A DNA stretch of 64,000 bases from Reyranella sp. (GTDB taxonomy: Bacteria > Pseudomonadota > Alphaproteobacteria > Reyranellales > Reyranellaceae): assembly GCF_004297405.1 (NCBI RefSeq), contig NZ_SCVC01000011.1, positions 248,001 through 312,000 of the forward strand, in the 5' to 3' direction. The position numbers and the translations under genes are program-made. Of the stretch, positions 59,341-64,000 are shown one piece after another. Every line of letters starts with the position of its first letter. Position 1 is the stretch's first letter. The notes below the pieces were generated by a model. It worked only from the letters and a program-made list of their open reading frames with translations. It made no database searches and was not told the origin of the DNA.

Positions 59341-60792
59341 GTGAACCTTGTCGGAATGAACGAGGGATTCGTGCTGGTCGCCAAGCGCGACTGCCAGACC
59401 TGTGAACTGGTGCAGCCGGTGGTGCGCGAACTGGCCGCCGGGGCGCGACCGCTCGCTGTCTACAGCCAGGACGATCCGGCTTTCCCCGAGGGCGTGGCCG
59501 GCGTCCGCGATGACCGTGCCCTGGAAGTCTCTTTCCGTCTCGGCATCGAAACCGTGCCGACCCTGATCCGCCTCGAAGGTGGCCGCGAGGTCGAGCGCGT
59601 TGTCGGCTGGCAGCGTGACGAGTGGCGGGCGTTGACCGGCGTCAATTCGCTGGGCGAGGGCTTGCCAGCGTGGCGGCCGGGCTGTGGCTCCAAATCCGTC
59701 GAGCCCGGCATCGTCGACGAACTCGAGATCAAGTATGGCGACGTGCCGTTCCAGGCGCGGCGCATCGAGGTCGGTGAGCATGAGGACGAATTCGAGGCGA
59801 TGTATTCGCGGGGCTGGTCGGATGGCCTTCCGACGGTGCCGCCGACGCGACTGCGCGTGCATCGCATGCTGAAGGGCACAAACCGCGATCCCAAGGACGT
59901 GCTGGGTCTGCTGCCGCCCGACCTGCAGCCGATCACGGTCGAGAAGGTGGCCATCAATGCTGTCATGGCAGGCTGCGCGCCGGAATACATGCCGGTGGTG
60001 ATTGCCGCAGTCGAGGCCGCGCTCTCCGAGCCCTTCAATATGCATGGTGTACTGGCGACCACCATGTTCTGCGGCCCGATCATGATCGTGAACGGGCCGA
60101 TCGCCAGGGCCATCGGCATGAACGGCCGCGGCAATGCGCTGGGGCAAGGTAACCGTGCCAACGCCACGATCGGCCGCGCCCTGCAGCTTTGCGTGCGCAA
60201 TGTCGGCGGCGGGCGGCCGCAGGGTGTCGACCGTTCGACCCTGGGAACGCCCGGCAAGTACACCTTCTGCTTCGCGGAGGATGAGGCGGGCTCGTTCTGG
60301 GAGCCGCTGTCGGTCGAGCGCGGCTTTGCCAAGGGCAGCAATACCGTGACCCTGTTCGCCGGTGACGGCGTGCACGGCGTCGTCGATCAGCAATCGCGTA
60401 CGCCGGAATCGCTGTCGCGTACCTTTGCGCTCAGCCTGCGCGGCGTGAACCATTGGAAGCTCGCACAGGGAGCCGATGCCATCCTGGTCGTGAGCCCCGA
60501 ACACGAACGCACCTTCAAAACGGCCGGCTGGGACAAAGCACGACTGCGCCGGGAACTCGACGCCTTGCTCGAACTGCCCGCCGAAGAGATCGTGCGTGGG
60601 GCGGGTGGCATTGCCGAAGGTGTGCCGGCTGCGGCGCTGGGCGACCGCAAGACCATCCCGAAGTTCCGCAAGGGCGGACTGCTGATCGTGCGGGCCGGTG
60701 GCGACGCCGGCATGTTCTCGGCCGTGATTGCCGGTTGGGGCGCCTCGGGGCCAATCGGCAGCACACCGGTCACCATCGCCATCAAGGATTGA
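59341..60792 (+). CDS. Thioredoxin-like domain fused to a UGSC-partner domain of unknown function
   Basis: From the GTG at 59341 (GAGGGAGAA upstream) the product is 483 residues. Residues about 1-100 look thioredoxin-like: VLVAKRDCQTCELVQPVVREL with a CxxC pair (18 and 21) and the cis-Pro region IETVPTLIRLEGG. Residues about 130-483 form a conserved enzyme-like domain (GRGWSDGLPTVPPT-type start, GCAPEYMPVVIAAVEA, CGPIMIVNGPIARAIGMN) with several cysteines. I cannot name its reaction. The gene lies 11 bases before the selenoprotein gene, and a CxxC domain next to a Sec-x-x-Cys protein fits an electron donor or fused maturation partner. Confidence 0.7.
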   Translation: MNLVGMNEGFVLVAKRDCQTCELVQPVVRELAAGARPLAVYSQDDPAFPEGVAGVRDDRALEVSFRLGIETVPTLIRLEGGREVERVVGWQRDEWRALTGVNSLGEGLPAWRPGCGSKSVEPGIVDELEIKYGDVPFQARRIEVGEHEDEFEAMYSRGWSDGLPTVPPTRLRVHRMLKGTNRDPKDVLGLLPPDLQPITVEKVAINAVMAGCAPEYMPVVIAAVEAALSEPFNMHGVLATTMFCGPIMIVNGPIARAIGMNGRGNALGQGNRANATIGRALQLCVRNVGGGRPQGVDRSTLGTPGKYTFCFAEDEAGSFWEPLSVERGFAKGSNTVTLFAGDGVHGVVDQQSRTPESLSRTFALSLRGVNHWKLAQGADAILVVSPEHERTFKTAGWDKARLRRELDALLELPAEEIVRGAGGIAEGVPAAALGDRKTIPKFRKGGLLIVRAGGDAGMFSAVIAGWGASGPIGSTPVTIAIKD

Positions 60793-60803
60793 GGAGGAAA
60801 CGG

Positions 60804-61316
60804 ATGGAACTGCTCGACCCAACATCAGAGATTTCGCCCATACGGCGTGCCCGCAAGGCGCCGCCCGACAAGATCGCTGGCTTGACCGTGGGGCTGCTCG
60901 ATATCTCCAAGCCGCGCGGCAACATTTTCCTCGACCGCATCGAAGAGCGGCTGACGGAAAAGGGCGTGGCGGTGAAGCGCTACAAGAAGCCCACTTTTAC
61001 GCGGCCTGCCCCCAATGATCTGTCGCAGAAGATCGCCAGCGAGGTCGACCTCGTGATCGAAGGCCTGGCCGATTGAGGCTCTTGCACATCGTGCAGTCTG
61101 CACGACATCAAGACCCTCGACGACAAAGGCATTCCCGGCGGCTACGTCGCCTCTTCGGTGTTCGTGGAAGCAAGTGAGGCGCAAGCCCAGTCGCTCGGCT
61201 TCGAGCCCGGCGTCGTCTACGTCCCGCATCCCATCCAGGACCGCACCGACGACGAAATGCGGGCGCTCGCTGACCAGGCATTCGAGCAGGTGCTGGCATT
61301 GATTGAGCGCGCATAG
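60804..61316 (+). CDS. UGSC-family selenoprotein read through an in-frame TGA (Sec91)
   Basis: From ATG 60804 (GAGGAGG 7 bases upstream) the frame is open to TAG 61314-61316 except for one TGA at 61074-61076, codon 91. Around it the protein reads EGLAD-U-GSCTSCSLHDI, exactly the U-G-S-C motif that names the UGSC family, with Sec91, Cys94 and Cys97. The 79 codons after the TGA keep normal codon use and a globular sequence (GGYVASSVFVEASEAQAQSL; VVYVPHPIQDR). Full length is 170 residues. A SECIS-like hairpin follows the TGA. The protein should be a selenium-dependent redox enzyme of unknown substrate, paired with the thioredoxin-like gene upstream. It needs SelA, SelB, SelC and SelD from elsewhere in the genome. 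A nonsense mutation is the alternative and is less likely. Confidence 0.9.
61074..61115 (+). promoter_or_regulatory. Bacterial SECIS element directly after the Sec codon
   Basis: After the TGA, an outer stem TCTTG (61080-61084)/CAAGA (61109-61113) and an inner stem TCGTGC (61089-61094)/GCACGA (61100-61105) surround the loop AGTCT. Exactly 19 bases separate the TGA from the loop G-T (61096-61097). E. coli fdhF has the same 19-base distance and nearly the same apical sequence (TGCAGGTCTGCA there, TGCAGTCTGCA here). This would recruit SelB for Sec insertion. Confidence 0.85.
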
Positions 61317-61375
61317 AGCCCTGTGCGGCACGCACGTCCAGGGTAACGATGCCTCTTGCCGACGGCGTCGTTGCA

Positions 61376-61407
61376 TCCCTAAATCGTCGACAATGACGAT
61401 TTAGGGA
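61376..61407. promoter_or_regulatory. Inverted repeat with 13-bp perfect arms covering the ribosome site of the acyl-CoA ligase
   Basis: TCCCTAAATCGTC and GACGATTTAGGGA flank GACAAT. The right arm contains the AGGGA of the ligase's ribosome site, 5 bases before the GTG start. It may be a repressor operator, an RNA switch hiding the ribosome site, or a weak terminator for the selenoprotein message. Confidence 0.6.
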
Positions 61408-63290: not shown

Positions 63291-64000
63291 CTATTCGTCA
63301 GCCCGCGATTCCCGAATGCGGCGCGTGCCCTGGAACACCGGCTTCAGCGGATCCATCACGAAGCGGATCCGCGGCAGGTCGGTGTCCACGGTGCAGCAGG
63401 TGCCGATGATCGGATCGGCGAGCGTTACGTTGGGCGCGTGCCATGCCGCGGCGTCGAAGGCCGAGACCTGCGGCTTGCCGCGCTCGGACTTGTAGAAAGT
63501 GTACTTCGGGTCGACCTGGATCAGCATCGGCTGGGTCTGGCCATCGAGCGGCGCGTTCGCCGCCGTCACCCAGTTGATGTATTGCACGTCGTTGCCGGCC
63601 ACCGGCTGCGGGTCGACCAAAGCGCAATCGAGGATCGTCTTACCGTCCTTCTTCGCCGTGCCGATGATGCGGTCGTGGCGCCGCACGAACTTCACCTCGC
63701 CGACGTCGATGGGGAAACCCCAGCGCGTGCGCAGCGCCTCGGCTGCAGCCGAGCTGCTCGCGACGGCACCGAGCAGGAAGCCGCGCGGATGGACGCCGGC
63801 CCGGCTGCCCAGGCGCAGCACTGCAAGATTGAACGGACCGACCGGGCTCTCCGGATACTTCGTGACGGCGAGGATCACGTAGGAGGGCAGCGCGGGGTGC
63901 ATTGCCTTGGGCAGCAAAGCCTCCGTCGTCGTGCGCGGCACTTCGATCAGGAGCTGCATCATCTCGGCCTTGGGCAGCGTCCAGGCCTCGGTGTCGAGAT
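63291..64000 (-). CDS. Acetoacetate decarboxylase-like protein, 5' end beyond the window
   Basis: At least 236 residues are visible; the frame stays open to the window end (LDTEAWTLPKAE precedes the first internal ATG at 63962). The pattern matches ADC-family proteins: VPRTTTEALLPKAMHPALPSYV, FNLAVLRLGSRAGVHPRGFLLG, and a final VMDPLKPVF strand. The catalytic segment reads RWGFPIDVGEVKF, where true acetoacetate decarboxylases have Y/F-P-K-K; both lysines, including the Schiff-base one, are missing. It may be a non-decarboxylating family member. It is tail to tail with the ligase gene. Confidence 0.72.
   Translation of the reverse strand, partial: LDTEAWTLPKAEMMQLLIEVPRTTTEALLPKAMHPALPSYVILAVTKYPESPVGPFNLAVLRLGSRAGVHPRGFLLGAVASSSAAAEALRTRWGFPIDVGEVKFVRRHDRIIGTAKKDGKTILDCALVDPQPVAGNDVQYINWVTAANAPLDGQTQPMLIQVDPKYTFYKSERGKPQVSAFDAAAWHAPNVTLADPIIGTCCTVDTDLPRIRFVMDPLKPVFQGTRRIRESRADE

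Follow-up and report, generated by a model that had tools for sequence, protein, structure and literature searches.

Selenocysteine (Sec) subunits with closely spaced cysteines are known from the amino acid reductases, where GrdB of glycine reductase carries the motif UxxCxxC and thioredoxin serves as the reductant (as stated in a passage of PMC13188914). The UGSC family and its selenocysteine have also been in print since 2008, under the name "UGSC-containing protein" (PMC2398784; PMC13188914). It ranks with the most abundant selenoprotein families of aquatic metagenomes, with 255 Sec members (PMC2398784), and the portions of both papers that treat it group it with Trx-like folds (PMC2398784; PMC13188914). 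The papers found assign it no function, in agreement with an earlier note on the present DNA, made from its letters, which called the function apparently undescribed. The locus considered here lies in a window of 64,000 nucleotides (the whole stretch of Reyranella sp. DNA that was analysed). New for UGSC are a constant partner gene, links to thioredoxin and thioredoxin reductase (TrxR), and a model-predicted fold that is flavodoxin-like instead of thioredoxin-like. The partner gene and these links, together with a likely kinship to GrdB/PrdB, recast the "unknown redox protein" as a two-subunit enzyme open to testing.

The UGSC gene and its in-frame TGA

The gene occupies positions 60804..61316 of the window (+ strand) and consists of 170 codons followed by a TAG stop. 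Its putative ribosome-binding site, GGAGG (60793..60797, +), is recognised from the sequence, and the ATG lies 6 bases further on. The sole break in the frame is the TGA at codon 91 (61074..61076, +), the predicted selenocysteine within U-G-S-C-T-S-C, and the product reads MELLDPTSEI...VIEGLAD-U-GSCTSCSLHD...; the earlier description of one frame interrupted by this TGA, with 79 further codons, is confirmed on the sequence. The product scores 137.9 bits against the Pfam UGSC model (PF24696, curated cut-off 25) and 148.1 bits against its NCBIfam counterpart (NF041046, curated cut-off 125). It matches the family over the whole domain length, with Sec at the same place and the U-G-S-C motif, and differs from it in nothing essential. 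The closest named relative, from Reyranella massiliensis, is 98% identical.

Most nucleotide differences from seven relatives fall on the third base of a codon, on either side of the TGA; downstream of it, the differences from Reyranella massiliensis divide over the three codon positions as 2/1/15. This pattern implies that the codons there evolve as coding sequence, and it agrees with the earlier view of them as well-coding. It also bears on the antisense frame at 60825-61376 (-, 183 codons), which is open and could itself be taken for the real gene. Because the substitutions track the third positions of the + frame, and the + frame exceeds two curated family cut-offs, the probability of that reading is negligible.

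A total of 115 UGSC matches was obtained, of which one fragment ended short of the site and was dropped. TGA occupies the site in every one of the remaining 114 gene copies (the window gene being counted twice, once from the window and once under the handle L134), and all 114 rows share the predicted Sec, the cysteines three and six residues after it and the string TGA-G-S-C. Outside these rows, the second Cys of the motif is a Trp in the fourth copy of the Reyranella genome itself and in the relative L158. Homologues with Cys in place of Sec, a check that the earlier note had proposed, were found (P0125-P0130 and L156). On a tree of 54 rows the seven Cys rows require a minimum of two switches between Sec and Cys, and the genome of L156, 100% complete, has no selB over the cut-off. 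In a wider draw UGSC is rare (5 of 398 genomes). One of these genomes (G445) holds a TGA form and, about 3 kb from it on that contig, selB, and another (G279) a Cys form, with no selB over the cut-off. In a third (G411, C6:12789-13246), also with no selB over the cut-off, UGSC survives as two separate matching pieces beside a core gene of the kind described below, which suggests that the gene decayed once the Sec machinery had been lost.

Database records treat the codon differently. Among the 120 listed of 1419 database relatives, 107 are stored as proteins of 93-98 residues, whose last residue is in every case the Asp preceding the UGA; the remaining 13 reach 137-188 residues and show CGSC at the site in six cases, Trp or Arg in three and an altered surrounding in four. 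The short entries would suit a TGA that is an ordinary stop, whether the gene encodes a protein of 90 residues, has decayed or contains a sequencing error. This is scarcely credible given the TGA in 114 of 114 copies, the third-position pattern, the Cys forms and, as set out below, the recoding null and the sel genes, and a sequencing error is excluded in practice by so many independent records. The same 107 entries bear out the earlier claim that annotation truncates the gene at the TGA, and automatic annotation so removes the active site of an abundant enzyme. The term "hidden selenoprotein", used in that note, is therefore apt in that automatic annotation misses the protein, but not in that the family and its Sec were already published in the two papers cited above.

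The hairpin behind the TGA and the selenocysteine machinery

The hairpin that follows the TGA goes far beyond what synonymous recoding produces. This SECIS-like element (61074..61119, +), supported by folding and by the recoding null, has an apical stem of 61089-61095 paired with 61099-61105 and a loop, GUC, at 61096-61098. The loop G-U (61096-61097) stands 19 bases past the TGA. Folding of the window at 61065-61125 gives -24.4 kcal/mol (z -3.47), and one of 200 dinucleotide shuffles folds as well. For the recoding null the protein was kept and the codons were redrawn from these genes' own usage, 80 distinct natural stretches being compared. An apical stem of at least 6 pairs is present in 78 of these 80, against 23.4% of the recoded versions, and the G-U occupies the fdhF position in 80 of 80, against 17%. 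The mean hairpin energy is -17.3 kcal/mol in the natural stretches and -12.7 in the recoded ones. The window's own z against this null is -3.2, and 71 of the 80 stretches are more stable than their own null, while 9 are not. In the Cys form L156, G-U is absent from this position and the stem has 5 pairs. In the E. coli K-12 fdhF SECIS (reference sequence from NC_000913.3) the G-U of the apical loop likewise falls 19 bases past the UGA and the apical stem is near-identical, although the loop has four bases (GGUC) against three (GUC) in the window model. Both the hairpin with its loop 19 bases away and the spacing shared with fdhF, as the earlier note had them, are thus borne out by these results.

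The assembly behind the window (6.46 Mb, 50 contigs, 98.8% complete) contains the sel genes for which that note had suggested a search. SelA (526 bits), selB (461), the tRNA-Sec gene selC (75) and selD (288) each exceed their own cut-off; selA, selB and the tRNA-Sec gene lie within 5 kb on contig C44, and selD is on C30. About 4 kb before selA, a molybdopterin oxidoreductase gene (formate dehydrogenase-like; C44:106324-107979) contains one TGA. Among 146 relatives, whose rows are not independent (65 belong to one genus), selB over the cut-off accompanies UGSC in 78 of 82 genomes and is found in 3 of the 64 without UGSC (Fisher 3e-32); when only genomes outside the taxonomic family are counted, the values become 6 of 7 and 3 of 64. 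Completeness is 89, 60, 96 and 77% in the four UGSC-bearing relatives with no selB over the cut-off.

The conservation of the TGA, the hairpin statistics, the substitutions, the sel genes, the co-occurrence with selB, the wider draw and the tree together make a very strong case. The window gene is very probably a real selenoprotein gene, and its reading as one, with selenocysteine insertion predicted, comes close to certainty.

A role of UGSC and its partner in selenium metabolism itself, for instance in selenium delivery to SelD/SelA, might be read from the 13 of 83 loci in which UGSC is followed on the same strand by selA (12) and/or selB (12; both in 11), one of each having been identified by HMM and the rest by clustering. 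In those 12 loci selA follows UGSC after 15-21 bases. The other 70 of the 83 loci have neither gene behind UGSC, however, the Reyranella selA-selB pair lies on another contig near the formate dehydrogenase gene with its one TGA, and four paralogues per genome would be hard to explain. Such a role is accordingly judged very unlikely.

The partner gene and the paralogous copies

Directly upstream lies a gene of 478 codons (59356..60792, +; ATG at 59356, an earlier GTG start at 59341 being possible), which the earlier note had not seen and which is the best lead to the function of UGSC. Its end and the UGSC start are separated by 11 bases that include the GGAGG. By tblastn, 110 of 110 loci have the partner directly upstream of UGSC and in the same orientation, and a profile of the partner picks out the core in 82 of 146 genomes, precisely those that have UGSC. 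The N-terminal part, residues ~1-96 (59356..59643, +), is a thioredoxin domain with a C-x-x-C motif at residues 13 and 16, and the AlphaFold2 (AF2) model of the partner matches thioredoxins over residues 1-96. Both cysteines occur in 29 of the 29 rows reaching there, and Cys110 in 30 of 30. The remainder, residues ~130-478 (59743..60789, +), forms a core domain without a known family, for which no Pfam or NCBIfam match at E up to 1 was common to more than a few of 35 rows. Within it, Cys207 is invariant (35 of 35 rows) and Cys305 is found in 33 of 35.

In the close family the partner combines thioredoxin and core, whereas distant copies (e.g. L132, L133, L027) consist of the core only; the Cys form L156 retains a thioredoxin-fused partner, 55% identical. 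In Global Ocean Sampling data a conserved domain with no assigned function, "Unknown_1", occurs fused to UGSC (PMC2398784) and is genetically tied to it as the core is; the two are probably the same. From the linkage and the domain make-up, UGSC and its partner would form a complex and are likely to constitute a reductase together.

Beyond the partner the neighbours vary, and no other family occurs in more than 21 of 83 loci. Downstream in the window, a perfect 13-base inverted repeat, TCCCTAAATCGTC-6-GACGATTTAGGGA (61376-61407), stands just ahead of an acyl-CoA synthetase gene, for which it looks like a putative regulator site; its 12-base core recurs in the Reyranella-type loci L052, L053 and L055. 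Further on, a gene at 63291-63962 (-) belongs weakly to the acetoacetate-decarboxylase family (30.4 against 29.8 bits). The metagenome bins that contain three of the UGSC loci (L077, L080, L096) bear the titles Klebsiella pneumoniae or Bordetella parapertussis, which look wrong because L077 groups with environmental Gammaproteobacteria on the tree.

The Reyranella genome has four UGSC genes, all with TGA and each with a core beside it, and on the tree they form four deep branches. Besides the window gene, one copy (C48:99394) is accompanied by the core and a TctC-type solute receptor, and another (C32:378539) by the core, a LysR regulator and an alkanesulfonate-monooxygenase-like gene, the latter below its cut-off. 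The fourth (C48:824828) is followed by two cores and preceded, at 17 bases, by a gene for a thioredoxin-reductase-like flavoprotein with C-A-I-C (L172 4936-5802, on C48; TIGR01292 5e-58, below its cut-off); further out lie an enoyl-CoA hydratase and an ABC permease. In the relative G016 (L158), too, the matching UGSC has this flavoprotein, 65% identical, as a neighbour. Four deeply split copies, each with its own core gene, suggest several substrates.

Predicted fold, proposed mechanism and possible relation to GrdB and PrdB

AlphaFold2 was run on 46 sequences with Cys substituted for Sec. The UGSC model (pLDDT 93.5) has five alternating strands and helices, with Sec91 between strand 83-89 and helix 92-107. 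The rows returned for it by Foldseek and VIA are flavodoxins, SsuE, response regulators and other Rossmann-like folds, with no thioredoxin among the 50 listed rows of either search. The fold is therefore predicted to be flavodoxin/Rossmann-like, against the thioredoxin fold supposed in print.

The prediction weighs against a reading of UGSC as a general thiol/selenol redox protein, a disulfide or peroxide reductase that would use thioredoxin and act on no carbon substrate. The UxxC motif and the fused thioredoxin domain favour it, as does the placing of UGSC with Trx-like redox proteins in the relevant portions of PMC2398784 and PMC13188914. Apart from the fold, however, the obligate large core without redox-family matches suits catabolism better, as do the paralogues beside genes for transport, LysR, acyl-CoA ligase and an alkanesulfonate-monooxygenase-like protein, and the general redox role is deemed unlikely.

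Instead, UGSC, with its predicted Sec91, is proposed to be the selenocysteine subunit of a two-protein, thioredoxin-driven reductase formed with the product of the upstream gene. As in fdhF, the hairpin after the UGA would be recognised by SelB together with Sec-tRNA. In the predicted flavodoxin/Rossmann-like domain Sec91 sits where the third strand ends, and its selenolate would attack an electrophilic substrate held between UGSC and the core of the partner, and Cys94 of U-x-x-C-x-x-C would resolve the intermediate as a Se-S bond. This bond could then be reduced by the C-x-x-C of the partner's thioredoxin domain, possibly via Cys110 or Cys207, with electrons passing from NADPH to thioredoxin to Se-S and the substrate being reduced. 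On this view UGSC would act in the manner of GrdB and PrdB, the subunits of glycine and D-proline reductase, and be distantly related to them. The mechanism as a whole is cautiously favoured.

UGSC-bearing bacteria are mostly not known to live by fermentation of the glycine or D-proline reductase type. A bolder and rather doubtful extension is that UGSC and its core represent an unrecognised class of aerobic, thioredoxin-powered reductases. Such a class would be a trimmed-down relative of glycine/D-proline reductase that has undergone duplication inside genomes to serve different substrates and is distributed among Pseudomonadota, Actinomycetota and Chloroflexota, and most database entries would lack its active site.

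When 46 UGSC rows were searched against 18,950 NCBIfam models, the model most matched after UGSC was glycine reductase selenoprotein B (TIGR01917; 28 rows, best 4.1e-5), an E-value of a size that arises easily, since the unrelated methylthioadenosine phosphorylase model matched 7 of the 46 rows (best 5.3e-5). Further matches were to GrdF (26), TIGR01918 (10), GrdH (7) and PrdB (1); the Pfam GRDB model (PF07355) matched none of the 46 rows at E up to 1. Loci of relatives (L137-L151) carry PrdB-like selenoprotein genes of ~280-405 codons, with an in-frame TGA in U-P-x-C and a long extra C-terminal part. Thirteen were found in 15 loci, and 10 of 10 aligned match PrdB and GrdB models; for one of them, only ~60% is covered by the listed database entries. 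The window's own genome gave no PF07355 match. Aligned to these PrdB-like genes, the UGSC profile reaches a score of 28.5 and places Sec on Sec, and none of 200 column shuffles scores as high (maximum 25.4); the controls reach 10.9 (reversed profile) and 14.3 (partner), and the hhalign probability is only 9.8%.

The two groups differ in several respects. The GrdB/GrdF/GrdH/PrdB models span 238-435 positions, against 170 residues in UGSC, and UGSC scores far below the curated cut-offs of the GrdB/PrdB family (PF07355, TIGR01917, TIGR04483), the window gene reaching 15.8 bits against TIGR01917, below its family cut-off of 602. The partner core resembles no GrdE or PrdA model that was matched (no GrdE- or PrdA-like match was recognised among the 35 partner rows), and in UGSC loci the thioredoxin is fused to the partner. 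On the other side, the Sec subunits of glycine, sarcosine, betaine and D-proline reductase have U-x-x-C-x-x-C in common with UGSC (for GrdB, as given in part of PMC13188914), their Sec is likewise followed by a helix, and the weak profile matches align Sec on Sec. The thioredoxin dependence of glycine reductase (PMC13188914, in the same part) may be likened to the thioredoxin link of UGSC. Motif and weak profile matches, as sequence features, thus point towards the selenocysteine subunits of the glycine and proline reductases and, with no claim to family membership, it is reasonable to suppose that UGSC works like the GrdB/PrdB subunits.
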